Made by a program: the position numbers and the translations under genes. Source: Nitrosospira briensis C-128 (GTDB taxonomy: Bacteria > Pseudomonadota > Gammaproteobacteria > Burkholderiales > Nitrosomonadaceae). From it: DNA of 64,000 bases. Within the stretch, counting starts at the first letter, position 1, and each line of letters begins with the position of its first letter. Under the pieces are notes generated by a model. The model was given only the letters and a program-made list of their open reading frames with translations, made no database searches and had not been told where the DNA came from. The DNA lies in contig NZ_CP012371.1 in the NCBI RefSeq assembly GCF_000619905.2, forward strand, positions 868,001 through 932,000. The letters run 5' to 3'. Shown piece by piece: positions 18,821 to 47,962 of this stretch.

Positions 18821-18865
18821 CGAAAACATTCAATCATGGATTTTATTACGCATCAGCTTGTTTTA

Positions 18866-19253
18866 AACCTAAATCCGGTAGTTGAATGGGGGAAGTGTAC
18901 GGTTTTTGAGGTGCAGGGCAAGGCGCAACGACGCGGAATGCGACCGCGCAGGGCGGAGCAGTGCCTTCCGCAGGAAGGTGCGACCCCGAAGCGGGATGCG
19001 GGCGCCTCCTTGCGGGTGGAACGCGATCGCGGCATCCCTGCGCTGCCCGATCCCCGCTGCGCGGGGCTCCTCGGGCGACGCTTCGGGGCGCCGTTCCATT
19101 CCAAGGAGTTGCAACGCAGCCATGTGCCGCAAAAACTGTGCAATTCACCCCGTAGCGGCCTCACCCGGAGGGTGAGCGCCAAATAATACGAAATGTTGTT
19201 ATTAATCATAATACTGATCTATAAAAGGAGCGATCAACTACCGGATTTAGGTT
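18866..19253 (-). mobile_element. family A terminal-inverted-repeat element, copy A1 (full, 388 bp)
   Basis: The ends AACCTAAATCCGGTAGTTGA (18866-18885) and its exact inverse complement (19234-19253) bound a GC-rich, hairpin-rich core. The core is shared with copies A2 (24606-24980) and A3 (40967-41344). It is in reverse orientation relative to those. It lies 45 bases downstream of sdhA. An open frame of about 100 codons (start region LRGELHSFCGTWLRCNSLEW) exists on the - strand of this copy. The same stretch is open in A3 but frameshifted in A2. No transposase is encoded, so it resembles a non-autonomous MITE-like element. Confidence 0.85.
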
Positions 19254-19432
19254 AAACGCACCACAAATGGCAATGACGAATATCAAGCGCGTCCCATGGC
19301 AAATGAAAACCCAGCATAAATGGGACATTTAAGAATGGCCAGATAAGACAAAAATGGTCATGGCTGTCGCCAGTCATGTTTCGGAATTTGTACCGCTTTC
19401 GGCGCCGGCAATAAAACAAGAGGGAATACAGA

Positions 19433-20947
19433 ATGAAAACTATTGAACCTTGTGTCTTGGTGATCTTCGGAGCGAGCGGGAACCTGTCGCGGCTCAAATT
19501 GATTCCTGCGCTGTTTCGGCTGGACGTGGCCGGGCGCTTGCCGGACAAAATGGCAATACTCGGTTGCAGCCTTGAACCGTGGAGCAATGATCAGTGGATC
19601 GCAGAGGTAGCGAAGATGCTTCAGTCGAAATTTGCTGACGGCATCGATGAGCAGGCCTTCGAGCGTTTCCGTGCCCGGTTGCATTATCATCCCAACTCCC
19701 CCACCAACGGCGATGCTTATCTCAGATTAAAGAAAGTGTTGGAAGAAACACCGGGGTTCCCACCCAACACCGTGTTTTACATGGCTGTTCGACCTTCAGC
19801 GTTTCCGGCGATTATCGACAAGCTCGGCGTGATAGGGTTGCTGAATCAGCAGAGGGGCTGGTGCCGCGTGGTCATTGAAAAACCTTTCGGCTATGACTTG
19901 CTGAGTGCGCAGACCTTGCAGGGAAGCCTGTACCGGCATTTGAATGAGCCGCAAATCTACCGCATCGACCACTACCTGGGCAAGGGTACGGTGCAAAACG
20001 TAATAGTATTTCGCTTCGCCAACATATTGCTGGAGCCGATATGGAACAATCATTATATCGACCATGTGCAAATTACACATTCGGAAACCCTGGGCATTGC
20101 TGGGCGCGCTGATTATTACGAGGGGGCCGGGGCGCTTCGCGACATGATCCAGAGCCACCTGATGCAGTTGCTTGCTCTCGTGGCGATGGAACCGCCGGTA
20201 ACATTGGCCGCGGAACATCTGCGGGACGAAAAAGTGAAAGTGCTGCAGGCAATACGGCCAATCACGCAGAATTCGGTACATGCGCATGCCTTTCGCGGGC
20301 AATATACCAGCGGCACCATTGATGGCATACCTGTTCCCGCCTATGTGGATGAACCTGGTGTGGCGCCGGACAGCGCCACGGAAACTTATGCGGCGCTGAA
20401 ACTGTTCATCGACAATTGGCGTTGGGCTGGCGTGCCTTTTTATCTGCGCACCGGCAAACGCATGGCGGAAAACAGTTCTGCAATTTGTATCCGCTTCAAG
20501 AGGCCGCCCCAGGATTTGCTGCGCCGCATGCACCAGGAGCATCATGAGTCATCGCGCCCGAACTGGATCATGCTGGGCATTCAGCCCAATGACTCGCTGA
20601 AAATGGAAATTCAGGTCAAGGTGCCAGGATTTGATCTGACGACTCGCACCATCAGCCTGGATGCCACCTACCGCAAGCAAAGCGACCAGGAGCATGACGC
20701 CTACGAGGGCTTGCTGCTGGATGTGATGCAGGGTGACCATTCATTATTTCTTCGTATTGATGAGGTGGAATGGGCTTGGCGCGCAGTCGATCCCATCATC
20801 AAGGTATGGGCGATGGAGCGCGATTTTATCAACGGTTATAACGCCGGCAGTTGGGGACCACGAGGTACCTATCGCCTGTTTGATAGTGATGATCAGTTCT
20901 GGCGCCATTCACTGGACCCTGAAGGCGCTGATTTACAAGCTTATTGA
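19433..20947 (+). CDS. zwf: glucose-6-phosphate 1-dehydrogenase
   Basis: The 504-residue product is full length for Zwf, which oxidises glucose-6-phosphate to 6-phosphogluconolactone with NADP reduction. It contains the N-terminal cofactor motif VIFGASGNLSRLKLIPALF (GxxGDLA variant with Asn), VIEKPFGYDL, the catalytic RIDHYLGKGTVQN and RTGKRMAE. It lies between sdhA and glgP within the TCA run, an unusual position that splits the sdh genes. Start supported by AGAGGGAA upstream of the ATG. Confidence 0.96.
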   Translation: MKTIEPCVLVIFGASGNLSRLKLIPALFRLDVAGRLPDKMAILGCSLEPWSNDQWIAEVAKMLQSKFADGIDEQAFERFRARLHYHPNSPTNGDAYLRLKKVLEETPGFPPNTVFYMAVRPSAFPAIIDKLGVIGLLNQQRGWCRVVIEKPFGYDLLSAQTLQGSLYRHLNEPQIYRIDHYLGKGTVQNVIVFRFANILLEPIWNNHYIDHVQITHSETLGIAGRADYYEGAGALRDMIQSHLMQLLALVAMEPPVTLAAEHLRDEKVKVLQAIRPITQNSVHAHAFRGQYTSGTIDGIPVPAYVDEPGVAPDSATETYAALKLFIDNWRWAGVPFYLRTGKRMAENSSAICIRFKRPPQDLLRRMHQEHHESSRPNWIMLGIQPNDSLKMEIQVKVPGFDLTTRTISLDATYRKQSDQEHDAYEGLLLDVMQGDHSLFLRIDEVEWAWRAVDPIIKVWAMERDFINGYNAGSWGPRGTYRLFDSDDQFWRHSLDPEGADLQAY

Positions 20948-21039
20948 TGCGTACCTGTTTGATGCCGTACCTGTTTTTGTGAGAGCAGTATCGTCTAGTG
21001 GACATCTTTGTATTTATCGTAAACCTAACAGGATAAATC

Positions 21040-23522
21040 ATGAATAATCCCTTAAAGCTTTCCATCTTTGAACATGAAAAAGTCGGTCTCGACACGGATT
21101 CAGTCAAACACTCTCTTTCCAACGGCTTGATCTATTCGGTAGGTAAAGACACGATTACCGCCACCAATCGCGACAGATTCTTTGCTGCGGCCTACATGGT
21201 GCGCAACCGCCTGATCGACCGCTGGATGGAGACCATGCGCAGCTATTACATCAATGACACTAAGCGGGTTTATTACTTTTCCCTGGAGTTCCTGATGGGG
21301 CGCACCCTGATGAACAGCGTACATAATCTCGGTTTTGATCAGCAATTCCGTGAGGCGTGCAGTGAATTGGGGATCGACCTGGACGACGTACGTGAAATCG
21401 AGCCGGATGCCGCCTTGGGAAACGGCGGCCTGGGCGTCTCGCTGCCTGCTTCCTCGATTCCATGGCGACGCTCAGCCTTCCGGGTTACGGCTATGGCATT
21501 CGCTACGAATACGGCATGTTTGCGCAGCGTATCGAGGACGGCAGACAGGTGGAACATCCGGATAACTGGTTACGCTATGGCAACCCCTGGGAGTTCCCCC
21601 GCCCGGAGGTGTTGCACCAGGTCAAATTTCACGGCCATGTGGTTCAATATGAAGATGAGAATGACGTATCGCGCTACCACTGGATCGATACCGATGACGT
21701 AATGGCAATGGCATTTGATACCCCTATCCCCGGTTATGGCACCCATACCGTCAACAACATGCGTTTATGGTCTGCGAAGGCGACGCGCGATTTCGAATTA
21801 CGCTACTTCAACGAGGGCAATTATGTCAAAGCGGTGGAGGATAAGAACGATTCCGAAAATTTGTCCAAAGTACTCTACCCGGACGACACCACCGCGATGG
21901 GACGCGAGCTTCGCCTGAAACAGCAATACTTCTTCGTATGCGCTTCGCTGCATGACATTCTCCATCGCTATAACAAATACCAGACCAATTTCGATGCCCT
22001 TCCGGATAAAGTCGCGATCCAGTTGAATGATACGCATCCCGCCATTGCCATTCCGGAGCTGATGCGCATATTGGTGGATTTGCACCGTCTCGACTGGGAC
22101 AAAGCGTGGGATATCACGATCCGCACTTTCGCCTATACCAACCATACGCTGATGCCCGAAGCGCTTGAAACTTGGGCAGTCGCCCTGTTCGAGAATGTCT
22201 TGCCGCGCCATATGCAAATCATCTATGAAATCAATCGCCGCTTCCTGAAAGATGTGATGCACCGATATCCCGGCGATACCGCGATACTGCGCCGCATGTC
22301 CATCATAGACGAGGAAGGTGGCAGACGAGTCCGCATGGCGCATCTCGCCATTATTGGCAGCCATAAGGTGAACGGGGTAGCACAAATTCATACCGAACTG
22401 ATGAAGCAGACCATATTTGCGGATTTCGACAGGTTTTTTCCCGGCAAGATCATCAATATTACCAACGGTATCACGCCGCGCCGCTGGCTGAACCAGGCCA
22501 ATCGGCGGCTGGCCGAACTCATTACTTCGCGCATCGGCGTTGGCTGGGTCAAGAACCTGAGTCAGTTGAAACATCTGATTCCGCTTGCCGACGACGCTTC
22601 TTTTCGCAAGGAGTTCGCTGACGTGAAGCGCGCGGACAAGGAGCGGTTCGTCACCATGCTGAAGCATAAGCACAACATTGATATCAGTGCTGATTCGCTG
22701 TTCGACGTCCAGATCAAACGGATCCATGAATACAAACGGCAACTTCTCAATGTATTGCATATAGTGACGCTTTATAACCGCCTTCGCGAGGATCGAAATG
22801 CCCAGTACGTTCCGCGTACCATCATTTTCGGGGGCAAGGCGGCGCCCGGCTATGCCACTGCCAAGCTCATCATCAAGCTTATCAACGATATCGCCGATGT
22901 CGTCAATAATGATCCAAAGGTGGCGGGGCGTCTGAAAGTGGTATTCATACCCAATTACGACGTATCGACCGCGGAAGAAATGATTCCGGCAGCAGACCTC
23001 TCCGAGCAGATTTCAACAGCAGGTACAGAGGCTTCCGGTACCGGGAACATGAAACTGGCATTGAACGGCGCACTCACGATCGGCACCCTGGATGGTGCAA
23101 ATATCGAAATCCGCAACGAAGTCGGGGAGGATAATATATTCATATTCGGCCTCACGGCGGCGGGGGTCGCCGAGGCGAAAGCAAAGGGTTATCAACCTTG
23201 GGATTTTTACCACGATAACGCCGAATTGCGGACGGTGCTGGATATGATCGCTTCGGGCTTTTTTTCGGTGGGTGAGCCGGGCCGTTTTAAACCCATTGTA
23301 GATTCTCTCTTGCAGGGCGGCGACAAGTACATGCTGTTGGCGGATTATGCCGCTTACATCGCTTGTCAGGAAAAGGTCGCGATCGCATACGAGAACCAGG
23401 ACGAATGGATACGAAAGGCAATTCTGAATATTGCCAACATGGGTAAATTTTCCAGTGACCATACCATCATGCAATATGCCAGCAAGATATGGGATGCAAA
23501 ACCGGTCGTTCCTGTCGAGTAA
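21040..23522 (+). pseudogene. glgP: glycogen/starch phosphorylase, frameshifted near 21435
   Basis: Two overlapping frames together make one glycogen phosphorylase, the PLP enzyme that releases glucose-1-phosphate from glycogen. The first frame (21040 to about 21435) ends in EIEPDAALGNGGLG. The second carries RLAACFLDSMATLSLPGYGYGIRYEYGMF and continues to 23522. The junction reads GGC GTC where GGC CGT is expected, i.e. one C is missing. The PLP-lysine region GTEASGTGNMKLALNGALTIGTLDGANIEI is intact. As read, the protein would stop at 21702, so the gene is either an authentic frameshift or contains a sequencing error. Downstream part alone could start at ATG 21462. Confidence 0.85.
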
Positions 23523-23681
23523 AGACCGATCGGCCGGCCTCAACTGTCTTTCCGGGGCTGGTCGGGTTGTTTTGCGGCTTTTTTTATCGCGGATGATGAG
23601 GAAGGGTCGATGTGTTATCTCCTGCGAATCGCAAGAGTAGCGCCCGATGCTCTCTTAAATCCGCTGAAAGGTTAACAGACT

Positions 23682-24377
23682 ATGAAATTCTCCATTTTTC
23701 GCTTCGATCCCGACAAGGACGAAAAACCTTATATGCAGGATTATGATGTCGCGCTGGAACCGGCCGACAGGATGCTGCTGGATGCGCTCATCCGGATAAA
23801 AACCGTGGACGACAGCTTGAGTTTGCGTCGTTCCTGCCGGGAAGGGGTATGCGGATCGGACGGGATGAATATCAACGGGCGCAATGGATTGGCGTGCATT
23901 ACCCCTGTCGCCGGATTGAAAGAGCCCGTGGAACTGCGGCCATTGCCAGGGCTCCCCGTGATACGCGACCTGATCGTGGATATGACGCAATTTTTCCAGC
24001 AGTATCATTCGATCAAGCCTTACCTCATCAACAATGACCCCCCCCCGGAAACCGAGCGGTTGCAATCGCCTGAAGACCGGGCAAAGCTGGATGGACTATA
24101 CGAATGCATACTCTGCGCATGCTGCTCCACTGCGTGTCCTTCATTCTGGTGGAATCCTGATAAATTCGTTGGCCCTGCCGGGCTATTACAAGCATACCGC
24201 TTTCTCGCAGACAGCCGCGACCAGGCGACAGCCGAGCGCCTGGATTATCTGGAAGACCCCTACCGCCTGTTCCGCTGCCATTCCATCATGAATTGCGTGG
24301 ACGTATGCCCCAAGGAATTGAATCCCACCAGCGCCATCGGGCGGATCAAAGACATGATGGTTAAGAGAACGGTATGA
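23682..24377 (+). CDS. sdhB: succinate dehydrogenase iron-sulfur subunit
   Basis: The 231-residue protein has the N-terminal [2Fe-2S] domain (SCREGVCGSDGMNINGRNGLAC) and the C-terminal clusters CILCACCSTACPSFWW and CHSIMNCVDVCPKELNP for [4Fe-4S] and [3Fe-4S] centres. It passes electrons from SdhA to quinone. It is separated from sdhCDA by zwf and glgP, about 4.9 kb away. Its stop overlaps the sdhE start. Confidence 0.96.
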   Translation: MKFSIFRFDPDKDEKPYMQDYDVALEPADRMLLDALIRIKTVDDSLSLRRSCREGVCGSDGMNINGRNGLACITPVAGLKEPVELRPLPGLPVIRDLIVDMTQFFQQYHSIKPYLINNDPPPETERLQSPEDRAKLDGLYECILCACCSTACPSFWWNPDKFVGPAGLLQAYRFLADSRDQATAERLDYLEDPYRLFRCHSIMNCVDVCPKELNPTSAIGRIKDMMVKRTV

Positions 24378-24607
24378 GGAAACTGGAGCGTGCTCGATGG
24401 CGTTGTCGTCGTGGCCTGCTGGAGCTGGATATCGTGCTGCAACGGTTTATGGATGCGTATTACGCTAAACTGGATGAAGCTGAACTCCGGCAATTTGAAA
24501 TATTGCTGGATCTTCCCGATAATGACTTGTGGGATATGATCGCGCTAAAAAAAGAAGCGGAGGATATGAGACTGAAACCCGTACTGCATCTCTTGCAGAC
24601 TATTTAA
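24374..24607 (+). CDS. sdhE: SdhE/CptB family FAD assembly factor
   Basis: The 77-residue protein has the RRGLLELDI motif (the RGxxE signature) needed for covalent flavinylation of SdhA, and the family ending DNDLWDMIALKKE. Its ATG overlaps the sdhB stop (ATGA). The TAA stop lies at 24605-24607 and its last two bases coincide with the first two bases of repeat copy A2, so the element abuts the end of the gene. Confidence 0.93.
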   Translation: MRKLERARWRCRRGLLELDIVLQRFMDAYYAKLDEAELRQFEILLDLPDNDLWDMIALKKEAEDMRLKPVLHLLQTI

Positions 24608-24980
24608 CCTAAATCCGGCAGTTGACTGCTCATTTAATAGATCAGTGTTATGATTAATAACATACTTGACGCTCACCTTCCGGATGAAGTCGCCACGGGG
24701 AGAATTGCACAATTTTTGCGGCACATGGCTGCGTTGCAACTTCTTGGAATGGAACGGTGCCCCGAAGCGTCGCCCGAGAGACTCCGCGCAGCGGGATCGG
24801 GCAGCGCAGGGAATGCCACGATCGCGTTCCACACGCAAGGGGCGCAGCATCCCGCTTCGAGGTCGCACCTTTCTGCAGAAGGCACTGCTCCACTCTGCAT
24901 GGTCGCATTCCGCGTCGCTGCATCTTGCCCTGCGCCCAAAAACCGTACACTTCACCCCGTCCAACTACCGGATTCAGGTT
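24606..24980 (+). mobile_element. family A terminal-inverted-repeat element, copy A2 (full, 375 bp)
   Basis: The left end AACCTAAATCCGGCAGTTGA and the inverted right end (CAACTACCGGATTCAGGTT, 24962-24980) match A1 with two or three substitutions. The core runs in the opposite orientation to A1. Relative to A1 and A3 the internal reading frame is shifted, so any encoded peptide is not conserved. It lies between sdhE and gltA, leaving only 50 bases before the gltA ATG. Confidence 0.85.
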
Positions 24981-25030
24981 TAATTGCATCGTGGTTTTTT
25001 TTGCCGGAAAGAAAATAATAGGGGAACGAC

Positions 25031-26329
25031 ATGGAACAAAAACATATAGCGACTCTCAATCTGGATAACGGCAATCCGACCGAGTTTCCCATCATGGCCG
25101 GCAGCATGGGGCCGGATGTGGTGGATATTCGTACTCTGCATGCCAAGAGCGGCGTATTCACTTACGACCCCGGCTTCCTTTCCACCGCCAGTTGCAGTTC
25201 CAAAATAACTTACATTGATGGCGATGAGGGCATTCTGCTTTATCGGGGCTACCCGATCGAGCAGTTGGCCAAGCGATGTGATTTCATGGAAGTGTGCCAT
25301 TTGCTGATGAATGGAGAACTGCCGACCAGAAAACAGAAATCCGCGTTCGACAAGACCATCAAAGATCATACGATGGTGCATGAGCAACTCGCGCGCTTTT
25401 TTACCGGTTTCCGCCGTGATGCCCATCCCATGGCGGTGATGGTCGGAGTAGTCGGTGCATTGTCGGCGTTTTATCATGATGCGATGGACATTTCCGATGC
25501 CAACCACCGTGAACTGTCGGCCTTCCGGCTGGTAGCAAAGCTACCTACCATCACTGCGATGACATATAAATATAATATCGGCCAGCCTTTCATATATCCG
25601 CGCAACGATCTTAGCTATGCGGAAAATTTCATGCACATGATGTTCGCCACGCCCGCCGAGGAATATAAGCCCAACCCGGTGTTGGCGCGGGCGCTGGACC
25701 GTATTTTGATCCTGCATGCCGATCACGAACAGAACGCTTCCACTTCCACCGTGCGGCTCGCGGGGTCCAGTGGCGCAAATCCATTTGCCTGCATCTCAGC
25801 CGGTATCGCCTGCTTATGGGGACCTGCGCATGGCGGAGCAAACGAAGCCTGCCTGAACATGCTGGAGGAAATTGGCGACGACTCACGCATCGGCGAGTAT
25901 ATCGAGCGTGCCAAAGACAAAAACGATCCTTTCAGACTGGTGGGCTTCGGCCACCGTGTATACAAGAATTTTGATCCCCGCGCCAAGCTGATGCGCGAGA
26001 CCTGCCATGAAGTGCTGAGCGAACTGGGACTGCATGACGATCGCTTGTTCAAGCTGGCGCTGAAACTGGAGAAAATTGCGCTTGAAGACGAATATTTCAT
26101 CTCCAAGAAACTCTATCCCAATGTTGATTTCTACTCCGGCATTGTGCAACGTGCTTTGGGAATTCCGGTCTCCATGTTCACAGCCATTTTTACCATGGCG
26201 CGCACGGTAGGCTGGATTGCCCAATGGAACGAAATGATTTCCGATCCAGACTATAAAATAGGGCGACCACGTCAGCTCTATACCGGGGCCACCACGCGAG
26301 ATGTAGTCTCGATTGCGTTACGCAAGTAG
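25031..26329 (+). CDS. gltA: citrate synthase (type I, hexameric-type length)
   Basis: The 432-residue protein is a typical proteobacterial citrate synthase that condenses acetyl-CoA and oxaloacetate. Visible are [37 protein letters not shown], catalytic-His regions [20 protein letters not shown] and [35 protein letters not shown] with the catalytic Asp/Arg, and [17 protein letters not shown] precedes the ATG. It heads the gltA-sucA-sucB-lpd segment. Confidence 0.96.
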
Positions 26330-26360
26330 TCTCGTTCTGCCAGCCAGGAGATCTCTAGCC

Positions 26361-29228: not shown

Positions 29229-29243
29229 GCCAAAGGAAGAACC

Positions 29244-30545: not shown

Positions 30546-30608
30546 GGGCATCGAACATAAGCCGCATTCCTGCAAAATAATTTTTTTCCTATTTTTACTA
30601 ATTCCAAT

Positions 30609-32069
30609 ATGCCTCGATCTTTTGATGTAGCAGTAATCGGTGCCGGCCCCGGCGGTTATGTCGCCGCCATTCGTTGCGCCCAATTGGGACTCAGCACTGT
30701 TTGCATAGATGAGTGGAAAAATCCGAAAGGTAATCCCAGCCTGGGTGGAACCTGCCTGAATGTCGGCTGCATTCCATCCAAGGCGCTGCTGGAGTCGTCG
30801 GAGAATTATGAACGTGCGGCGCATAAATTTGCGGCTCACGGGATCAAGGTGGAAGGCCTGTCGGTGGATATCCCGGTAATGATGTCTCGTAAGGATAAAA
30901 TTGTCGCTGCCTTCACCGGCGGGGTCGCCATGCTGCTTAAAAAAAATAAAGTCGCCTCCCTGCACGGACGCGGAACACTGCTCAGAAGCATCGAGGAACA
31001 TGGCGACAACAACAGGGGCTGGCAGATCCAGGTAAAGAACGGGGAAACAGAGGACACCGTCGAGGCAAAACACGTCATCATCGCCACCGGTTCCACTCCG
31101 CGGTCTTTACCGTTTGCACGGATAGACAACGAACGCATATTGGACAATGCCGGCGCGCTGGCGCTGACAGAAGCGCCCAGGCGGCTGGGCGTGATTGGCG
31201 CCGGCGTCATCGGCCTGGAAATGGGCAGCCTGTGGCGGAGACTCGGTTCCGAAGTCACCATTCTTGAAGCGCTGCCTACGCTACTACCGTCGACTGACGA
31301 GCAAGTCGCAAAAGAAGCGCTAAAAATCTTTACCAGAGGATCAGGCCTTGTCATCAATACGGACATCAGGATAAACGGAATCCAGACCAGCGAAGCGAAC
31401 ATCACCGTGGAGTACGTTAACGCCCAGGACAAGGAGGGCAACGTGCAAAAACTGGAAGTGGATAAGCTGATCATCGCAGTCGGCCGGGTTCCCAACACGG
31501 CTGGACTGGGTGCGGACAATGTCGGCCTGAAGCTGGATAATCGCGGGTTTATCGAGGTGGATAGCGATTGCCGCACCAATCTGCCCAATATCTATGCCGT
31601 GGGAGATGTGGTGCGCGGGCCCATGCTGGCGCATAAGGCTTCCGAAGAAGGGGTCGCCGTCGCTGAAAACATCGCGGGACAGGCTGGACACGTGAACCTT
31701 GATACCATCCCCTGGGTTATCTACACCTCGCCCGAAATCGCTTGGGTGGGCAAAAACGAACAGGAACTGAAAGCAGCGGGGATTCAATATAAAGCCGGGC
31801 AATTCCCCTTCATGGCCAACGGCCGCGCACGCGCATTGGGTGAGACCGGCGGCTTCGTCAAAGTGCTGGCGGACGCAAACACCGACCGTATCCTCGGCGT
31901 CCACATGATTGGTCCCTACGTTTCCGAAATGATCGCCGAAGCAGTAACGGCGATGGAATTCGCAGCCAGCAGCGAAGATATCGCTCGCATCGTTCACGCC
32001 CATCCATCGCTATCGGAAGTGCTGCATGAGGCGGCGCTAGCGGTGGATAAACGTGCCATTCACATATGA
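30609..32069 (+). CDS. lpd: dihydrolipoamide dehydrogenase (E3)
   Basis: The 486-residue flavoprotein has the FAD motif [19 protein letters not shown], the redox-active disulfide [13 protein letters not shown], the NAD motif [47 protein letters not shown] and the C-terminal [13 protein letters not shown] with the catalytic His-Glu pair. It reoxidises lipoamide for the SucAB complex. It ends the TCA run; a family A repeat and the his operon follow. Confidence 0.96.
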
Positions 32070-32422
32070 CGGGTGACTGGATCTGCACTCGCACCGTGAA
32101 GGTCCACCTTTTCCTCTCCCCTTTTTCTCCAGTTTCCAGATTCTGATTGAAAGAGCCCGTGACGGCGTATGCAACTTTTTCACAGGGAAAGGTTGTCATA
32201 TGGCGAGTTTCAGCAAATATCGTCGTTATCGTCGTTGTATATCTTCGGCAAACCCGTTGTGGCCCTTTAGAGTAAAATGCGGCTTTTATCCTGAATCCGA
32301 CAGTTGGACGGAGTGGAGTGAGCTCATCAAGAAGGTGAAGCTCACAGAATACGAAAACTCCTTTTTGATTAAAACTGGAAAATAAGCGGTCAACTGCCGG
32401 ATTCAGGTTTACGAGTTCTTCC
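32070..32422. other. intergenic region between lpd and hisG
   Basis: It contains the short family A copy A4 (32289-32409). The remaining 220 bases carry no supported gene. A 61-codon frame at 32200-32385 runs into the repeat and is not credible. Only 13 bases separate the repeat end from the hisG ATG, so the hisG ribosome-binding region is partly element-derived. Confidence 0.5.
32289..32409 (-). mobile_element. family A element, copy A4 (internally deleted, about 121 bp)
   Basis: The ends TCCTGAATCCGACAGTTGGA (32289) and CAACTGCCGGATTCAGG (to 32409) match family A. Read on the - strand, the first 75 bases (TTGACCGCTTATTTTCCAG, then a GAGCTTCACCTTCTTG segment) align with the left part of copy A3. 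The whole GC-rich core of about 250 bp is missing. This shows that the family is mobile or recombining independently of its core. Confidence 0.75.
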
Positions 32423-33067
32423 ATGACGAGCATCACTATTGCCCTTTCCAAGGGGCGCATTTTTGACGATACCGCACCGTTATTGAAAGCGGCAGGGATC
32501 GTCGCGCTCGACGATCCTGAAACATCGCGCAAGCTGATCCTCGCTACCAACCGTGATGACGTGCGGCTCATCATTGTGCGCGCTTCGGATGTGCCGACTT
32601 ATGTACAGTACGGTGCTGCCGATATGGGCATCGCAGGAAAGGACGTATTACTGGAGCATGGCGGCGCAGGGCTTTATCAGCCGCTGGACTTGAATATTGC
32701 CTGCTGCCGCATGATGGTGGCGGTGCGCGATGATTTCGATTACGAAGACGTCGTAAACCGGCGAGCGCGAGTGCGCGTCGCAACGAAATATCTGCAAACT
32801 GCACGTGAACACTTTGCCGAAAAAGGCATGCATGTGGATCTCATCAAGCTCTACGGCTCGATGGAACTCGCGCCGCTGGTAGGGTTGGCGGATGCGATCG
32901 TGGATCTGGTTTCCAGCGGCGGCACGCTAAAGGCGAACCATCTCAAGGCAGTGGAAGAGATCGTGCCGATTTCGGCGCGGCTGATCATCAATCAGGCAGC
33001 ACTGAAATTGAAGCGGGAAGCGATACAGCCGATGCTGGAAGCTTTCTCGGCAGCAATCATCAAATAA
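32423..33067 (+). CDS. hisG: ATP phosphoribosyltransferase, short form
   Basis: The 214-residue protein is the short HisG type, which lacks the regulatory C-terminal domain and requires HisZ; no hisZ is in this window. It catalyses the first step of histidine synthesis. Motifs are [54 protein letters not shown] and the phosphoribosyl-binding [15 protein letters not shown]. First gene of the his operon. Confidence 0.95.
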
Positions 33068-33116
33068 GGCAATGAATCAGCAAAAACGTCACAACCAATA
33101 AATCAAGTTCCTTCTC

Positions 33117-34433
33117 ATGATTCAAATCAAACGGCTTTCCTCCACCGATGTCAGCTTCAATGAAGCGCTAATGGAGCTGCTGGCTTTTGAAAGCGCCCAG
33201 GATGCGAAGCTGGATGCGACCGTGGCGGATATTCTTGCCGATATCAAGAACCGGGGCGATGAAGCCCTGTTGGAATATACGCGCCGTTTCGACCGTTGGG
33301 ATCCAGTCTCGGCAGCGGCACTCGAATTGCCCCGTCAGCGCTTGCAACAAGCCCTGCAAGATCTACCCGCGGATCAGCGTGATGCCCTGGAACAAGCCGC
33401 ATTGCGCGTGCGCGCCTACCACGAAAAGCAGTTGGCACAATCCTGGAGCTATATCGAGTCTGACGGCACGCTGCTTGGCCAGAAAATAACCCCGCTGGAT
33501 CGTGTTGGCCTGTACGTTCCCGGCGGCAAAGCATCTTATCCTTCCTCGGTACTGATGAACGCAATTCCCGCCAAGGTGGCAGGAGTGGGCGAACTCGTCA
33601 TGGTCGTGCCCACCCCCGCCGGCGAGACAAATGATCTGGTGCTGGCTGCCGCAGCCATTTGCGAGGTTGATCGAGTATTTACCATTGGCGGCGCTCAAGC
33701 CGTCGGCGCACTGGCCTATGGCACCTCGACAGTGCCGCAAGTGGACAAGATCGTCGGCCCCGGCAACGCGTATGTGGCCGCAGCCAAACGCCGTGTATTC
33801 GGCATGGTAGGCATAGACATGATAGCCGGGCCTTCGGAAATCCTGGTGATTTGCGACGGCAAAACAAATCCGGACTGGATCGCTATGGATTTATTTTCAC
33901 AGGCGGAGCACGATGAACTGGCGCAAGCGATCCTACTTTCCCCGGATGCCGATTTTATCGACGCGGTAGCGGCAAGTATTGCCCGCCAACTGGAAGCGAT
34001 GCCGCGCAAGGCGGTAATACGGGCTTCGCTGGAAGACCGCGGCGCGTTGATCCAGGTACGCGATCTGGACGAAGCCTGCGCCATAGCCAACCATATTGCA
34101 CCGGAACATCTTGAGCTGTCGGTCGAACAGCCGGAAAAATGGCTGAAAAAGATCAGGCATGCCGGCGCCATTTTCCTGGGCCGTTACACTTCCGAAGCAC
34201 TCGGCGATTATTGTGCCGGCCCCAATCATGTGTTGCCCACCTCTCGTACCGCGCGCTTTTCTTCACCGTTGGGTGTGTACGATTTTCAGAAACGCAGCAG
34301 TATTATCAAGGTGTCGGAACAGGGTGCGGCAAAACTGGGGCCGATCGCCTCCATCCTGGCTCATGGAGAGGGTTTGCAAGCCCATGCGATGTCGGCGGAA
34401 TATCGGATCGTGAATGGCGCCGATATAAAGTAA
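33117..34433 (+). CDS. hisD: histidinol dehydrogenase
   Basis: The 438-residue protein is full length for HisD, the zinc enzyme that oxidises histidinol to histidine. Visible are [65 protein letters not shown], the zinc/catalytic [15 protein letters not shown] and [13 protein letters not shown], and [23 protein letters not shown]. It follows hisG by 49 bases. Confidence 0.97.
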
Positions 34434-34513
34434 CTCGACAGATTCTTCCATGAGCCAACCCAAACTATATGCCGCAGAATGCCGACCGTAAATCGAGGCT
34501 AAATCATATAAAA

Positions 34514-35614
34514 ATGCCTGGATCGCCCAATCAAATCATTCGGCCCGAAATCCTCGCGCTCTCCGCGTATCACGTACCGCCTGCAAGCGGCATGGTGAAG
34601 CTGGACGCAATGGAGAATCCTTATTCCCTGCCACCTGAACTGCGCGATGAGATCGCGCAACTGGTTGCGGACGCGCCGATTAATCGCTATCCCGATGCGA
34701 GTGCTGCTTCGCTCAAGGCCTCGTTACGCCAAGCGCTGGCAATCCCCGATGGAATGGATATCATGCTCGGCAACGGTTCGGACGAGATTATCCAGATCAT
34801 CGCTCTGGCCTTCGCCAGACCTGGTGCGGTATTGATGAGTGTCGAACCTGCCTTTGTCATGTTTCGCATGACTGCCGTGTTCGCTGGGATGAAATATGCA
34901 GGGGTGCCGTTAAATGCTGATTTTTCGCTTGATATGGACGCGATGTTTGCCGCCATTGCGCGGCACCAGCCAGCGGTAATTTTTATCGCATACCCTAATA
35001 ACCCCACTGGCAACCTGTTTGACAGCGAAGCAATCTCACGTATTATTGAAGCTGCTCCTGGCGTGGTGGTCGTGGATGAGGCTTATCATGTCTTCGCCGA
35101 TGCCAGCTTTATGGGCAAGCTGGCGCAATACCCCAATCTGTTATTGATGCGCACGCTTTCCAAGCTGGGACTGGCGGGTTTAAGGCTGGGGCTCCTGGCC
35201 GGAAGACCTGAATGGTTGATACAGCTTGAAAAACTGCGTTTGCCGTATAATATAGGTGTTGTCACCCAACTGATCGCGGAAAAGGTATTACAGCATCACG
35301 ATGTCCTGATGCAACAGGCCGCAGCGATCAAAGCTGAACGCGCGATAATGGGTGAACGACTGGAAGCACTGAACGGTATCGAGGTTTTCCCGACGGATGC
35401 GAATTTCATTTTGTTCCGCGTGGCTCGAGAGGGTGACGGGAATGAAGCCAATCGGGTATTTCTGGGACTTAAAGAGCGCGGTATATTGATCAAGAATCTT
35501 GATGGGTACCACCCGTTACTGAAGAATTGCCTTCGCGTGACAGTGGGCAAACCCGACGAAAACACAAAATTTTTGATGGCGCTTCAGGCTTCACTTAACA
35601 AATCCAACAATTAA
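34514..35614 (+). CDS. hisC: histidinol-phosphate aminotransferase
   Basis: The 366-residue PLP enzyme carries [58 protein letters not shown] and the PLP-lysine segment [19 protein letters not shown] chose the ATG at 34514 since homologues start about ten residues before the SAYHVPP segment; the open frame extends to 34469. It lies between hisD and hisB. Confidence 0.95.
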
Positions 35615-35626
35615 ATTAACCTATCC

Positions 35627-36214
35627 ATGCGTCAGGCCCAAATCAACCGAAACACCCTGGAAACCCAAATTAACGTCAAAGTTAATCTGGATGGTACCGG
35701 GAACGTAGCACTGGATACAGGAGTGCCATTTCTCGATCATATGCTGGACCAGGTGGCGCGCCACGGCATGATAGACATGGAGATCGCTGCTACAGGCGAT
35801 CTGCACATCGATGCCCATCATACGGTAGAGGATATCGGCATCACCTTTGGACAGGCATTCAAGCAAGCTATCGGGGACAAGAAGGGCCTGCGCCGTTACG
35901 GCCATGCTTATGTGCCGCTGGATGAGGCGTTGACGCGGGTGGTGGTGGATCTCTCGGGACGCCCCGGCATGGCGTTTAACGTCGAATTTGTACGCGCCCG
36001 CATCGGCGAATTCGACGTGGATTTGATAAAAGAGTTCTTTCAAGGGTTTATCAATCATGCCATGGTGACCGTGCATATTGACAATCTGTCCGGCTGCAAC
36101 GCGCATCATCAGGCAGAAACCGTATTCAAGGCATTTGGGCGTGCATTACGCATGGCAATCGAAACCGACCCCCGCGCCATGGGCACGATTCCGTCCACCA
36201 AAGGCTCCTTGTAG
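35627..36214 (+). CDS. hisB: imidazoleglycerol-phosphate dehydratase
   Basis: The 195-residue monofunctional HisB has the manganese-binding repeats [52 protein letters not shown] and [22 protein letters not shown]. It dehydrates imidazole-glycerol phosphate. No phosphatase domain is fused, as usual outside enterobacteria. It begins 12 bases after hisC. Confidence 0.97.
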
Positions 36215-36243
36215 ACATCCTCAACCCTCATCATTTACACAGC

Positions 36244-36960
36244 ATGATTGATATTGCAATCGTTGACTACGGCATGGGTAATTTGCGCTCGGTGTCCAAA
36301 GCGCTGGAACACGTCGCGCCGACCGCCTCCATTGTCATTACCGACGATCCGGAGGTCGTACGGAAGGCTGGGCGTGTAGTGGTTCCAGGCCAAGGCGCAA
36401 TGCCCGACTGCCTGCGGGAACTGGATAAACGCGGATTGCGCGGTGCGGTGCGTTATGCAGCGATGAGCAAGCCTTTTCTCGGTATCTGCATCGGCCTGCA
36501 AATGCTGTGCGACAGCAGCGAGGAAGGCAACGTGGAAGGCCTCGGCATTGTGGCCGGCACCGTGCGGCGTTTTCCCTCCGCGGCGGTGGCTGATATCAGC
36601 GGACAGCGATTCAAAGTGCCGCACATGGGCTGGAACCAGGTTCATCAAACCATTGAACATCCCTTGTGGAAAGATATCCCCAGCGATGCACGCTTTTATT
36701 TCGTGCACAGTTATTATGTGGAAACCGCCAATCCGGAATCGACGGCGGCTACCACCAACTATCCCTTTTCATTTACTAGCGCAGTGGCCAGGGATAATAT
36801 TTTTGCCGTCCAGTTTCACCCGGAAAAAAGCCATGACGCAGGGTTGGCGCTGCTGAATAATTTTGTGCGATGGGAGCCGTTTCAGTTTCAGGAAGGGATA
36901 ATCAAGTCCAGACGTGACCTCTTCCCGCTCCAAACTTCAAAACTCACTTCTACACTTTAA
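36244..36960 (+). CDS. hisH: imidazole glycerol phosphate synthase, glutamine amidotransferase subunit
   Basis: The 238-residue protein is a class I glutaminase: [25 protein letters not shown], nucleophile motif [16 protein letters not shown], and the His-Glu pair in [22 protein letters not shown]. It supplies ammonia to HisF. Compared with the usual 200-215 residues it has about 25 extra C-terminal residues, which contain no recognisable motif and run into the spacer before hisA. Confidence 0.94.
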
Positions 36961-36973
36961 ACCTGACTCAAAA

Positions 36974-37741
36974 ATGCTGATTATTCCTGCGATAGACCTG
37001 AAAGACGGCCAATGCGTACGCCTGAAACAGGGCGTGATGGAAAACGCCACGGTATTTTCCGAAGATCCCGGCGCCATAGCCAGACATTGGCTGAGCCAGG
37101 GCGCCCGCCGATTGCATCTGGTGGATCTGAACGGCGCGTTTGCCGGCAGGCCAAAAAATGAGCCGGCCATACGTGATATTGTTGAGGCTATTGGTGACGA
37201 AATTCCGACCCAACTCGGGGGTGGCATACGTGACCTGGAAACTATCGAGCGTTATCTCGACGATGGCATTACTTACATTATCATCGGTACGGCAGCGGTG
37301 AAGACGCCGGGATTCCTGCATGATGCCTGCAACGCTTTCCCCGGCCATATCATGGTAGGACTGGACGCGAAGGACGGAAAGGTAGCTGTCAACGGCTGGT
37401 CTAAAGTGACTGGTCACGACGTCGTGGATCTCGCCAAAAAATTCCAGGATTACGGGGTCGAAGCGATCATCTATACCGATATCGGGCGCGACGGCATGTT
37501 GAGCGGCGTCAATGTGCAGGCCACGGTGGAACTGGCCAGGGCGCTTACTATTCCCGTCATTGCCAGCGGGGGCATCGGCAATCTTGACGATGTGAAAGCG
37601 CTCTGCGACCTCGAGTTGGAAGGTATCATGGGTGCAATTACGGGACGCGCCCTGTATGAAGGCGCTCTGGATTTCAAACTGGCACAAGCATTGGCGGATG
37701 AGCTGAGTATGAAAATATCCAACGACAAATCTCTCTCCTGA
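36974..37741 (+). CDS. hisA: ProFAR isomerase (phosphoribosylformimino-5-aminoimidazole carboxamide ribotide isomerase)
   Basis: The 255-residue TIM-barrel protein starts [20 protein letters not shown], with the catalytic Asp of [53 protein letters not shown] and [15 protein letters not shown] phosphate-binding half-repeats. The open frame begins earlier inside hisH; the ATG at 36974 matches the family start. Confidence 0.96.
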
Positions 37742-37883
37742 TAAAGCTCCGTCTTCATTTCGAAAAAATAGAACTGCGGTAAATTCAGCTTCCAGGTAGA
37801 TGATCTGCTACTAAGGGTACGAAGTGGCTGAGCATCTGCTCCAAAGCGGATGTCGGCAAATTTGCGATTTATAAAGGTATCGT

Positions 37884-38642
37884 ATGGGTCTTGCCAAGCG
37901 TATCATTCCCTGCCTTGACGTAACAAATGGCCGTGTTGTCAAAGGCATCAATTTTGTCGGGCTTCGGGACGCGGGCGATCCTGTCGAAATATCACGCCGT
38001 TACGGTGATCAGGGAGCAGATGAACTGACCTTCCTCGACATCACTGCCAGTTCTGATAATCGTGACTTGATTCTTCGTATCATCGAGGAAGTTGCAGCCC
38101 AGGTATTCATTCCGTTAACCGTCGGTGGCGGGGTGCGCAAGGTTGAGGATGTGCGAAGGTTGCTGAATGCGGGTGCCGATAAAGTAAGCATCAATACTTC
38201 GGCGGTACAGAATCCTCAACTGGTGGCGGATGCCGCGAACCGTTACGGGTCTCAATGCATCGTGGTGGCGATAGACGCCAAGCGAGTCGGCGATGGCTGG
38301 GAAGTATTCACTCACGGGGGGCGTCAGGCTACCGGCATGGATGCGGTCGAGTGGGCCAAAAAACTGCAATCGCTGGGGGCAGGTGAAATATTGCTCACCA
38401 GCATGGACAAGGATGGTACCCGCAACGGGTTTGATCTGGCACTGACTCGCGCCGTATCCGACGCGGTGGATGTGCCGGTGATCGCGAGTGGTGGCGTCGG
38501 TAATTTGCATCACCTGGTGGAAGGAATCGTAGAAGGTCATGCCGACGCGGTGCTGGCGGCCAGTATTTTCCATTATGGCGATTACGCTATACTTCAGGCC
38601 AAAGAGTATATGGCGGAACACGGCATTGAAGTACGGCTTTAG
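37884..38642 (+). CDS. hisF: imidazole glycerol phosphate synthase, cyclase subunit
   Basis: The 252-residue TIM barrel is a complete His[111 protein letters not shown] and [14 protein letters not shown]. It makes IGP and AICAR with HisH. A 142-base gap precedes it; I looked there for a riboswitch and found none. Confidence 0.97.
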
Positions 38643-39033
38643 TAGTAGAATAACCAGTTCACTCGCATGGATACCCCGAATGGGATGCCACGAAAGCAAC
38701 GACCGCTGCAGCGAGGCAGAGATGGAATGTCCCAAAGATAAGGAATGGCGAGTACGCGAATGACTGGCATTCTGCTTTCCTTTCCGGAGCGAGGAAAATC
38801 CGATACACCAGATTCCGAAAACCCTTCATTCCACCCGATCTGTAGACGCAGGCGCTCACTGTTTATCTATTATCCCCGGTGCGCGCCGTCGAATCAGACA
38901 GCCTTTATCGCACCTTCTGAGCATCCATCAATGCCAGTCAAGCTGAAACCCGGAATCAGCTCTTCACCACCAAGCGCTCCATTGAAGACCTATATTTAAA
39001 GCGTTCCGAATAACCTGATCCTAAAGCATATCC
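38643..39033. other. 391-base non-coding gap inside the his operon
   Basis: The gap separates hisF from hisI, which are usually almost contiguous. Frames of up to 84 codons are open here on the + strand, but none has a family-like composition or a good ribosome-binding site. No repeat arms were seen. It may be a remnant of a lost gene or a relocated promoter for hisIE. Confidence 0.4.
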
Positions 39034-39423
39034 ATGTCCGACATTTGGCTCAACAAGATAAACTGGTCTGACGACGGACTCGTGCAAGTCGTTACGCAGG
39101 AGGCCGGCAGCAAGGCGGTGCTGATGGTCGCCTGGATGAATCGTGAAGCATTGAAGCTCACCGTGCAAACCGGCGAGGCACATTATTGGTCGCGCTCTCG
39201 CAGGAAACTCTGGCATAAAGGTGAAGAATCAGGGCACGTTCAGAAAGTAAAAGAAATCCGGCTGGATTGCGACGAGGACGTTCTGTTGCTGACGGTGGAA
39301 CAAGTGGATGGCATCGCTTGTCATACCGGCAGACATAATTGTTTTTTCAATAAATTGGAAAACGGCCAATGGACAGTGGCAGCGCCGGTAATCAAGAGTC
39401 CGGAAGAGATATACAGAAAATGA
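39034..39423 (+). CDS. hisI: phosphoribosyl-AMP cyclohydrolase
   Basis: The 129-residue protein has the HisI motifs [55 protein letters not shown] and [11 protein letters not shown], which include the zinc-binding cysteines and magnesium-binding acidic residues. It opens the purine ring of PR-AMP. hisE is a separate gene overlapping its stop by 4 bases. Confidence 0.96.
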
Positions 39424-39746
39424 CCGATCCAGCTATGCTTTACCGGTTGGCTGAAGTTATTGAAGTCCGGAAAAATGCCGATCCTGCAGCTTCATATGTC
39501 GCAAAGTTGCTGCATGACGGGCAGGACAAGATTCTGAAGAAAATTGCGGAAGAGTCGGCGGAAGTCTTGCTGGCATCGAAAGAGCAGGACAAATCGCATG
39601 TAGTACGAGAGGTTGCGGACCTGTGGTTTCACTGCCTGGTGCTGCTGGCCCACCACAACCTGGGGCCCGACGATGTGCTGAACGAGCTACGGCGCAGAGA
39701 GGGGGTTTCGGGGGTGGATGAAAAAGCAGCGCGAAAGGCGCGATAA
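39420..39746 (+). CDS. hisE: phosphoribosyl-ATP pyrophosphatase
   Basis: The 108-residue all-helical protein matches HisE of the MazG-like fold: [45 protein letters not shown] with its acidic metal ligands, and [19 protein letters not shown]. The ATG at 39420 overlaps the hisI stop. hinT begins 2 bases after its stop. Confidence 0.95.
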
Positions 39747-39748
39747 AA

Positions 39749-40102
39749 ATGGACAGCTGTGTTTTCTGTAAAATCGTGCGGGGAGAAATTCCCAGTGAAA
39801 AAATCTATGAAGACGCTGATGTTTTTGCTTTTCACGATATTCACCCCGCAGCGCCGATACATTTCATGTTGATACCCAAGCTACACATCGGTTCGCTTGA
39901 CGAAGTCGAAGATAAGCACCGCAGTTTGCTGGGCGAGATGATGGTACTGATACCCAGGCTGGCGAGGGAGCAAGGCTGCACGGATGGCTTTCGTACCATT
40001 ATCAACACCGGGCGCGTCGGGGGACAGGAGGTTCATCACCTGCATATTCATATCATAGGCGGCAGCGAACGCTTGCCACCTATGATTCCTCACCCAAGAT
40101 AA
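39749..40102 (+). CDS. hinT: HIT-family purine nucleoside phosphoramidase
   Basis: The 117-residue protein is a HinT homologue: CVFCKIVRGEIPSEKIYEDADVFAFHDIHPAAPIHFMLIPK at the N-terminus and the HIT motif HHLHIHIIGG with the catalytic central His. It hydrolyses AMP-lysine and related phosphoramidates. In betaproteobacteria it usually lies between hisE and tatA, as here. Confidence 0.95.
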   Translation: MDSCVFCKIVRGEIPSEKIYEDADVFAFHDIHPAAPIHFMLIPKLHIGSLDEVEDKHRSLLGEMMVLIPRLAREQGCTDGFRTIINTGRVGGQEVHHLHIHIIGGSERLPPMIPHPR

Positions 40103-40113
40103 AGGAGTAAATT

Positions 40114-40341
40114 ATGGGATCATTCAGCATTTGGCACTGGCTGATCGTTCTGCTGATTGTTGTTCTGGTATTTGGCACCAAGAAACTCCGCAATATCGGC
40201 AGCGATCTGGGCGGTGCAGTGAAAGGCTTCAAGGAAGGCGTAAAAACGGCTGATGAAGAGGCGCTATCTTCTGTGTCTCATGAAGCAGGTGCCCGGACCA
40301 TCGAAGTGGATGCCAGGGAAAAGGCGCAGTCAAAATCCTGA
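40114..40341 (+). CDS. tatA: Sec-independent translocase subunit TatA
   Basis: The 75-residue protein has one membrane helix (about 5-22), the hinge and amphipathic start [26 protein letters not shown], and a short polar tail. TatA oligomers form the pore for folded, twin-arginine-signal proteins. GGAG lies a few bases before the ATG. tatB follows after 111 bases. Confidence 0.95.
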
Positions 40342-40452
40342 GGCCAGCGAGCAGAAGTGAAAAATTCAGCTAATGGGATGTAACGAATCGCGAATCGCGG
40401 AAATACCATCCGATAGCCGTTCGCTACGCTTCACCGGTAATTCCCATAAAAA

Positions 40453-40887
40453 ATGTTCGATATCAGCTTCGCGGAAATTCTCGTTATAGCAGTCGTGGGG
40501 CTGGTCGTCATCGGTCCCGAGCGGCTTCCCAAGGTGGCACGTACGCTAGGGCATCTGTTCGGCCGGGCGCAGCGTTACGCCAACGATGTCAAGAATGACA
40601 TCCAGCGCGAAATGGAACTGGAAGAACTCAAAAAATGGAAAGCTTCCGTGGAGGGAACCGCTCGTTCCATCGAAGACTCGGTACAAAAAGAAATGACGCA
40701 GTTCCAGGACATGATGGAAACGGAAACAGGATCAAAATCTTCCACGACTACTTCTGTGTCTTCTCCCGAAGCCACGGAGGAAGCTTCAGCATCGTTCCCT
40801 TCCCCCACTCCAGTCAGCCCGGCCACGTCGTCGATCAAATCGGAATCAAGCCACGAAGCAGCTGGAACAGAAGTACATCGCGAGTAG
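40453..40887 (+). CDS. tatB: Sec-independent translocase subunit TatB
   Basis: The 144-residue protein begins MFDISFAEILVIAVVGLVVIGPERLPKVARTLGH, the TatB signature with one membrane helix and the GPERLP hinge, followed by a long amphipathic helix and a Ser/Thr/Pro-rich acidic tail. It forms the Tat substrate receptor with TatC. Repeat copy A3 separates it from tatC by 459 bases, an unusually long gap for these genes. Confidence 0.95.
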   Translation: MFDISFAEILVIAVVGLVVIGPERLPKVARTLGHLFGRAQRYANDVKNDIQREMELEELKKWKASVEGTARSIEDSVQKEMTQFQDMMETETGSKSSTTTSVSSPEATEEASASFPSPTPVSPATSSIKSESSHEAAGTEVHRE

Positions 40888-40966
40888 TTTAGCGCCGGAT
40901 AACATATACTCGCTGACGCGAACCGGTATCTATCCGGTTCAATTCTTTGGCTCCCGCTCACAATAA

Positions 40967-41344
40967 TCCTAAATCCGGCAGTCGACCGCTTATTTTCCGG
41001 TTTAACGTTATAATCGAAAAGGATTTTTTGTACTCCATGAGCTTCACCTTCCTGGTGCGATCGCTACAGGGCGAATTGAACAGTTTTTGCGGCACAGCGC
41101 TGCGTTGCAACTCCTTGGAATGGAACGGCGTCGCCCGAGGAACCCCGCGAAGCGGGGATCTGGCAGCGCAGGGGATGCCGCGATCGCGCTCCACACGCAA
41201 GGGGGCGCCCGCATCCCGCTTCGGGGTCGCACCTTCCTGCGGAAGGCACTGCTCCGCCCTGCGCGGTCGCATTCCGCGTCGTTGCGCCTTGCTCTGCACC
41301 CCAAAAACCGCCCACTCCACCCCATTCAACTGCCGGATTTAGGA
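40967..41344 (+). mobile_element. family A terminal-inverted-repeat element, copy A3 (full, 378 bp)
   Basis: Ends TCCTAAATCCGGCAGTCGA (40967) and TCAACTGCCGGATTTAGGA (to 41344) differ by one base as inverted repeats. Just inside the left end lie a TATAAT, AAGGA and an ATG opening a frame of about 100 codons (MSFTFLVRSLQGELNSFCGT). The core contains strong small hairpins, for example CCCCGC-GAA-GCGGGG and CCTTCC-TGC-GGAAGG. The element sits between tatB and tatC; its right end stops 2 bases before the tatC ATG. Confidence 0.87.
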
Positions 41345-41346
41345 TA

Positions 41347-47847: not shown

Positions 47848-47962
47848 TCCGGAATCCGGTAGTAGACCGCGCATTTATCGCTTAAGCGTTATAATACAAA
47901 GGATTTTACGTTTCCCGTGCGCTTCGCTTTCAGGGGCACGCTGCAAGCGTCGGATTCAGGAT
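47848..47962 (+). mobile_element. family A element, copy A5 (internally deleted, about 115 bp)
   Basis: The left end TCCGGAATCCGGTAGTAGAC, an internal TATAAT about 28 bases in, AAAGGA, and the right end GTCGGATTCAGGAT follow the family A plan. The GC-rich core is missing. It lies between the 73-bp repeat and cycA, only 58 bases from the cycA ATG. Confidence 0.7.

Follow-up and report, generated by a model that had tools for sequence, protein, structure and literature searches.

The 64,000-nucleotide window of Nitrosospira briensis C-128 analysed here contains five copies (A1–A5) of a miniature inverted-repeat transposable element (MITE), a class to which the family belongs by anatomy and mobility. 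With a probability that we put at about 0.85, the segments are copies of a non-autonomous element that is moved in trans by a transposase and is defined by its ends, its pentamer targets and a hairpin unit. Three features of the family are unusual: a structural constraint that is deep and strand-biased, target pentamers that follow a palindromic rule, and a hairpin loop that accepts cargo.

The five segments lie where the sequence-only reading, an earlier interpretation of the same DNA, had placed them, and are mutually related; their borders were set exactly, from CCT to AGG (Table 1). The terminal inverted repeats read CCTRAATCCGGYAGTTG here and CCTAGAAACSKCRGTTG in other taxa. A genome-wide search with the ends, proposed in that reading, returned 161 sites (80 + 81) in the 3,210,113-bp genome with up to two mismatches allowed, and none for the reversed pattern used as a control. 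The genome holds 68 end pairs, one of them nested. With A1 as a BLAST query at least 51 matches were obtained, 40 of the 90 candidates having been scored. Forty fetched copies were examined together with A1–A5 (45 in all), of which 43 have both ends; the accepted two-ended copies measure 54–388 bp and contain no transposase gene. Dominating the size distribution are classes of about 385 bp and 235–237 bp, accompanied by shorter forms of 54–190 bp and a single 309-bp form. The 236-bp class corresponds to the 386-bp class minus a GC-rich block of ~150 bp, removed at one exact position. A4 and A5, previously described as retaining only the ends, have indeed lost the long hairpin, but ~95 bp of one side is kept. 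The unusual end of A5 also occurs in a 112-bp pair at G000 664880–664991.

Table 1. Elements, loop cassettes and target duplications in the window (position 1 is its first letter)
Feature	Positions	Strand	Description and basis
A1, full element	18868–19251	+	384 bp, long form with loop cassette; folded strand +; ends, target-site duplication, fold
A1, core cassette	18940–19091	+	Apical loop; loop position via the A2 copy in the alignment
A1, target duplication	left 18863–18867, right 19252–19256		TTAAA/TTAAA, perfect
A2, full element	24608–24978	-	371 bp; folded strand -; ends, target-site duplication, fold
A2, core cassette	24757–24906	-	In loop, seen in the alignment
A2, target duplication	left 24603–24607, right 24979–24983		TTTAA/TTTAA, perfect
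A3, full element	40968–41343	-	376 bp, between tatB and tatC; folded strand -; ends, target-site duplication, fold
A3, core cassette	41128–41270	-	Slightly shortened
A3, target duplication	left 40963–40967, right 41344–41348		ATAAT/ATAAT, perfect
A4, short form	32290–32407	+	Long hairpin lost; upstream of hisG; ends, duplication, alignment
A4, target duplication			TTTAT/TTTAC, imperfect
A5, short degraded form	47849–47960	-	Between haoB and cycA; strand by eye from the GTAGACCGC end
A5, target duplication			AAAAT/ATAAA, imperfect

Flanking the elements are 5-bp target duplications, which are perfect in 30 of the 43 two-ended copies examined in C-128. For a wider sample, 191 distinct end pairs were pooled, a few of them chance pairs: 68 from C-128, 32 from relatives and 91 from GTDB genomes, the last, here and in the counts that follow, from among the matches listed. 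A perfect pentamer duplication is present in 109 of the 191, and all 109 read xTNAx. The outer two bases are complementary in 100 of these (xTNAx', palindromic), compared with a mean of 47.6 and a maximum of 67 in 20,000 trials in which one column was shuffled; the palindromic pentamers fall into the classes ATNAT, TTNAA, GTNAC and CTGAG. Exceptions are the nine perfect duplications that are not palindromic and the 82 pairs without a perfect duplication, some of which are chance pairs. Inheritance of a flanking base from the donor was considered as a source of the symmetry and rejected, as nearest-neighbour copies share the pentamer class in 16 of 41 cases, against 21.6 in shuffles; the class is thus not passed on among close copies and appears to be a feature of the site chosen. 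Also rejected, as the sole reading, was a 3-bp duplication (TNA) flanked on either side by one base of the element, because the outer bases are non-complementary in the nine exceptions. Mu has a symmetric 5-bp target analogous to the xTNAx' rule; this is an analogy and not a test.

Evidence of insertion comes from the joined flanks of A1–A4, searched against 14 related genomes. Informative for A1 is one of the 14, G009, in which the alignment is continuous across the junction and a single TTAAA stands in place of the element in the fetched sequence; the other 13 show no alignment across the junction. The A2 junction is crossed by alignment in 13 of the 14; the site is empty in G004 and G011, with a single TTTAA in the fetched sequences, and in G009 it is occupied by a different, 145-bp family member in the same orientation. 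Fetched sequences show the A4 site to be empty in G009 and G011, with a single TTTAC in G011 and a changed pentamer in G009; the junction is crossed by only 23–45 bases in eleven other relatives, and G002 has no such alignment. At the A3 site G009 carries a 122-bp short form, a difference that reflects either loss of the hairpin in G009 or its gain in C-128. The A3 junction is also crossed in G019, G020 and G013, where the spacer has diverged and an empty target is unreadable, and the remaining relatives are uninformative. Empty sites and differing occupants together indicate that the elements insert and that what occupies a site can change later.

The sequence-only reading had suggested an active non-autonomous element family and had called for a check of duplications and empty sites. 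The family assignment is borne out by the inverted ends, target duplications, copy number and empty sites (found for A1, A2 and A4); the word active holds on the scale of species only, on which A1, absent from G009, is recent. That the segments could instead be old single-copy or syntenic remnants, immobile in the genome, has next to no probability: degraded copies and unpaired ends are many, as among remnants, but similar copies occur at many places, the empty sites retain single target copies, and presence at the syntenic sites of all relatives is contradicted for A1, A2 and A4.

The basic unit of the family, ~234–237 bp long and without the GC-rich core, consists mostly of a single long, imperfect hairpin that the ends close, and is present patchily in many Beta- and Gammaproteobacteria. 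In the search of relatives A1 has matches in 29 of 61 genomes, including 22 of the 23 genomes of the genus, at least 13 of which match it outside the core. Among the matches listed, only the core matches A1 in G001, G003, G005 and G016, and all matches fall outside the core in G026 and G032, which represent another genus of the same bacterial family; G047 and G050, from other families, combine the same body with the different ends CCTAGAAACSKCRGTTG. When 84,980 species genomes were scanned for a pattern spanning both ends, at least 119 stretches were found, the matches listed including Ottowia, Acidovorax, Rhodoferax, Polaromonas, Ramlibacter, Thiocapsa, Thiodiazotropha, Denitromonas, Methylocaldum, Nitrosovibrio and others. 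The length is 233–237 bp in 55 of the 91 distinct GTDB end pairs among the matches listed. The distribution is described as patchy because the end pattern, with one mismatch allowed, occurs in only 2 of 200 evenly drawn genomes of the phylum, C-128 counted. Used as the sole query, the Ottowia element was found in 2 of 72,556 plasmid records and in none of 50,697 phage records, and the exact end pattern matched one viral contig. Three stretches among the matches listed come from two MAGs labelled Desulfobulbus and Desulfovibrionaceae, which may be mis-binned.

The GC-rich core is cargo in the hairpin loop and not the element itself. Occupying the loop in Nitrosospira and Nitrosovibrio, this block of ~150 bp is a separate repeat that also exists outside the element: in relatives it forms head-to-tail arrays, lies within a second inverted-repeat family with ends GGAAGSSCTGAACAA (duplications CTAG, TTAA or TTAG in six loci by eye, imperfect in others), and is found once in frame within a UbiH-like gene (L156), the sole intragenic case seen. 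Among the GTDB loci listed, twelve elements carry insertions of at least 50 bp at canonical positions 129–179. Three of these carry the GC-rich core and come from Nitrosospira or Nitrosovibrio; the other nine have six different cassettes of 52–82 bp, in most of which a palindrome is visible by eye. The foreign cassettes sit in the apical part of the hairpin, and loop cargo of this kind explains why the sequence-only reading saw a core and a shell. Ten short forms among the GTDB loci listed, counted after one 28-bp deletion and one chance pair had been set aside, lack a stretch running from 90–141 to 207–224, which is the long hairpin. Two further variants are a 158-bp insertion at canonical position 205 (L322) and a 71-bp extension that is a second end (L220).

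The ~234-bp body has a fold whose base pairs are maintained through compensatory changes in the Proteobacteria sampled, and on one strand G-U is in excess of A-C. RNAalifold, applied to an alignment of 59 elements that included A2, gave 46 pairs, 33 with compensatory double changes; on the opposite strand (the + strand of A1; 58 elements without core) there are 72 pairs, 55 with double changes. A custom covariation score, which counts double-sided changes only, is 0.392, whereas the highest control values are 0.091 (40 shuffles) and 0.064 (six slides). After filtering at 85% identity the score is 0.406 (44 rows; shuffles up to 0.095). The fold of the core itself is modest, with double changes in 9 of 25 pairs among 41 sequences. 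Covariance analysis of the core, which the sequence-only reading had suggested, accordingly returned a modest signal, and the strong one was found in the body. The proposal that a structured RNA is carried by the element holds for the body, with its strong covariation and RNA-like wobble bias, but not for the core, which is a separate loop insert. In the literature searched we met no report of such covariation for a MITE.

On the A1 + strand, the strand for which the structure was predicted, G-U outnumbers A-C by 414 to 80 and is in excess in 57 of 58 sequences; when the structure is predicted on the other strand, the excess shrinks to 213 against 177. Part of it stems from column composition, since shuffles also favour G-U (mean 488 against 209 A-C), with a ratio of 2.3 compared with the observed 5.2. 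After removal of the wobble-majority pairs from the filtered set, 179 G-U and 62 A-C remain. RNA parameters give the favoured strand the lower minimum free energy in 57 of 58 sequences and DNA parameters do so in 58 of 58, so that the stability fits RNA and single-stranded DNA equally well; the folding z averages -8.5 over the 20 sequences tested. Long palindromes are self-correcting, and pairing could be a by-product of template switching by which the arms correct each other, with no selection for a folded strand. We consider this unlikely, as it predicts neither the pairs that are G-U in most sequences (for example, in 42 of 58) nor the preference of departures in the filtered set for G-U over A-C (104 against 29 from G-C, 29 against 13 from A-U). 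Rfam gave no match at the gathering score in the window; for four further loci the best sub-threshold score was 23.7 bits where 80 is needed, and two weak matches look like chance.

Several copies adjoin genes closely, as had been noticed before. The left duplication of A2 contains the sdhE stop codon, the tatC ATG at 41347 overlaps the right duplication of A3, and hisG, ahead of which A4 lies, starts at 32423. The window genes haoB and cycA, on either side of A5, are consistent with an ammonia oxidizer. Gene frames were assigned by a longest-ORF heuristic, copies that lacked a frame within 600 bp on one side or the other being dropped uncounted; 55 of the 59 placeable copies lie between open frames and four inside a frame. 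Such placement, together with the strong covariation and the wobble bias, would suit a structured RNA with a function for the host, for example in stabilizing or regulating mRNA, that is kept by selection on the host. This explanation is nevertheless very unlikely, considering that the sites differ between close relatives, the taxonomy is patchy, Rfam has no match in the window, and orientation relative to the flanking frames is unbiased (15 sense on both sides, 19 antisense on both, 21 mixed; 55 scored). Given this random orientation, a function in host mRNA is an unlikely reason for the fold to be kept, and selection would instead act on the element.

A partner transposase with the same ends, anticipated in the sequence-only reading, was sought and not found: in a non-exhaustive search of C-128, its relatives and the at least 119 GTDB loci (among the matches listed), no transposase lies between matching ends. 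Nor does one lie between end pairs 0.7–4 kb apart, for which all loci of at least 1.5 kb were inspected (four of the pairs have near-matching duplications and are transposase-free by eye), or between matching ends at the unpaired ends in C-128 and the ends in G046, G047 and G050. Every end at the PF01609 and PF13751 loci of C-128 has at least three mismatches, and no PF13701 locus inspected in the search of C-128 and 60 relatives has a pair of these ends around the gene. Two candidates were discarded. A 1.7-kb pair (G000 663274–664991) takes its right end from a short A5-like copy and has a mismatched duplication; the viral contig L330, which carries an end, more likely represents a phage inserted into a copy than an autonomous partner, a reading based on repeated 20-bp sites that begin TG, 28 bp inside.

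IS1380 elements have ends starting with CC and AT-rich duplications of about 5 bp. This fit in end and duplication type raises the prospect that the family is an internally deleted IS1380-family element moved by the PF13701 transposase, of which C-128 has a remnant at G000 2,695,897–2,696,218. In G002 (L084) a PF13701 fragment is also found no more than about 60 bp from a 144-bp copy, and in G024 (L079) a 12-bp match to the start of the end lies 113 bp from another such fragment. Against this origin, both ends at L084 belong to the short copy and not to an insertion sequence around the gene, L079 has no second end, the ends of an interrupted PF13701 gene in L073 are different ones by eye, and no end pair occurs within 1.5 kb of the C-128 remnant. 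PF13701 is moreover absent from 9 of the 13 genus genomes with outside-core matches (among the matches listed), and we regard an IS1380 origin as improbable.

Mobilization in trans is inferred because no autonomous copy was found. In the mechanism that we favour, a DDE-type transposase acting in trans would bind the ~17-bp ends and make a 5-bp staggered cut at a symmetric pentamer target. Selection for a folded single strand, as RNA or single-stranded DNA, would act on the element and not on the host, hairpins may be lost through replication slippage, and copies at one site may be overwritten by other copies. A more far-reaching reading, which we put forward as a tentative possibility, is that of a mobile element across Proteobacteria whose spread needs the fold of one strand (RNA or single-stranded DNA), the mobile unit being a structured nucleic acid of ~234 bp with xTNAx' targets and apex cargo. 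A fixed length and a covarying fold across distant genera are unusual for a transposase-less element, and the strand-biased wobble offers a way to test whether MITE movement depends on a folded single strand. Symmetric pentamer targets provide a fingerprint for recognizing the missing transposase, and the cargo in the loop illustrates hitch-hiking by unrelated repeats.

Correia elements (CREE) of Neisseria insert at TA and have different ends, in contrast to the xTNAx pentamer duplications of the family described here. The review passages on CREE present them as short inverted-repeat elements in many copies, whose transcripts RNase III cleaves at the inverted ends, and describe no loop cargo. 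Closest in length to the ~234–237-bp unit is the Chunjie MITE of Geobacter uraniireducens, which the corresponding review passage gives as 235 bp at full length, with 37 further copies of 178–235 bp, conserved ends, direct repeats and one copy inside an operon (Chen et al. 2008, via PMC10969869). The present family may be Chunjie, and this is the main uncertainty over novelty because Chunjie is available here as a description in a review and not as a sequence; Geobacter is absent from the titles of the at least 119 loci among the matches listed. In the PMC papers searched nothing was found on miniature inverted-repeat transposable elements in Nitrosospira, nor anything joining MITE, Acidovorax and target site duplication, and the family may be described elsewhere.

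QMITE1 and QMITE2 of Coxiella burnetii are likewise long palindromic MITEs, whose RNA is predicted to fold very stably; in the sections consulted, their direct repeats are of 2–4 or 7–9 bp, no cross-taxon covariation is described, and the authors found no QMITE1 orthologue in other genomes (PMC5896051). The Tn3-derived TIME elements resemble the family in being non-autonomous, mosaic, 262 bp long and flanked mostly by 5-bp duplications, and differ, in the passages on them, in their 38-bp Tn3-type ends, usually single copy and known partner transposon family (PMC4133298). A repeat spanning families has a precedent in ERIC, according to the review section on it (PMC10969869). The core recalls the Rickettsia palindromic elements of the same review (PMC10969869) in being about 150 bp long and palindromic, and one copy of the core lies in frame in a gene (L156); it differs from them in that this is the single intragenic case seen, and in its tandem arrays and its riding in MITE loops.

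The GC-rich core is not confined to the MITE: a second inverted-repeat family, with ends GGAAGSSCTGAACAA, also carries it (loci L059–L072; genomes G001, G005 and G016). Duplications of CTAG, TTAA or TTAG were read by eye at six loci of this family, the ends of which resemble those of IS5-group elements. Near-perfect, head-to-tail arrays of the core, with a period of 138–150 bp, occur at three loci of genome G010 (L053, L054 and L055) and one of G016 (L057), the array in L053 changing over to a 110-bp unit. Set in frame within a gene of genome G050, assigned by eye to a UbiH-like FAD monooxygenase, is a further core copy, adding ~47 residues to the protein.

Occupying the A2 site in the window is a 371-bp member, whereas its counterpart in genome G009 is a different member of 145 bp in the same orientation; this difference suggests gene conversion or inter-copy replacement. 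Elsewhere in the genome, A5 (which lies between haoB and cycA) is matched by a sister that shares its unusual end and was possibly copied along with a duplicated hao cluster. Also in this genome is a nested MITE copy (L039), in which one pair of ends is enclosed by another, and which holds an additional palindromic insert, GTAGGTCGGGCTGCGCCCGAC.

Coordinates of individual copies and sites.
Feature	Location
Second inverted-repeat family, example copy	L061:890-1314
A2	window 24608-24978
G009 counterpart of A2 site	L197 = G009:C20:21800-22720
A5	window 47849-47960
A5 sister	G000 664880-664991
Nested MITE copy	L039 (G000:298165-298929)
Core copy within gene	L156:1501-1640

An IS1380-type transposase (PF13701) is present in fragmentary form near a 144-bp MITE copy in genome G002 (L084) and near a 12-bp match of the MITE end in G024 (L079), probably as a neighbour in both cases. 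In an IMG/VR viral contig (L330), a MITE end adjoins phage tail genes about 127 bases from one contig end, with three ~20-bp repeats (first bases TGCACAAATTGCATGCGACG) beginning 28 bp inside, a layout resembling the terminus that a transposable phage would show after insertion into a MITE copy.
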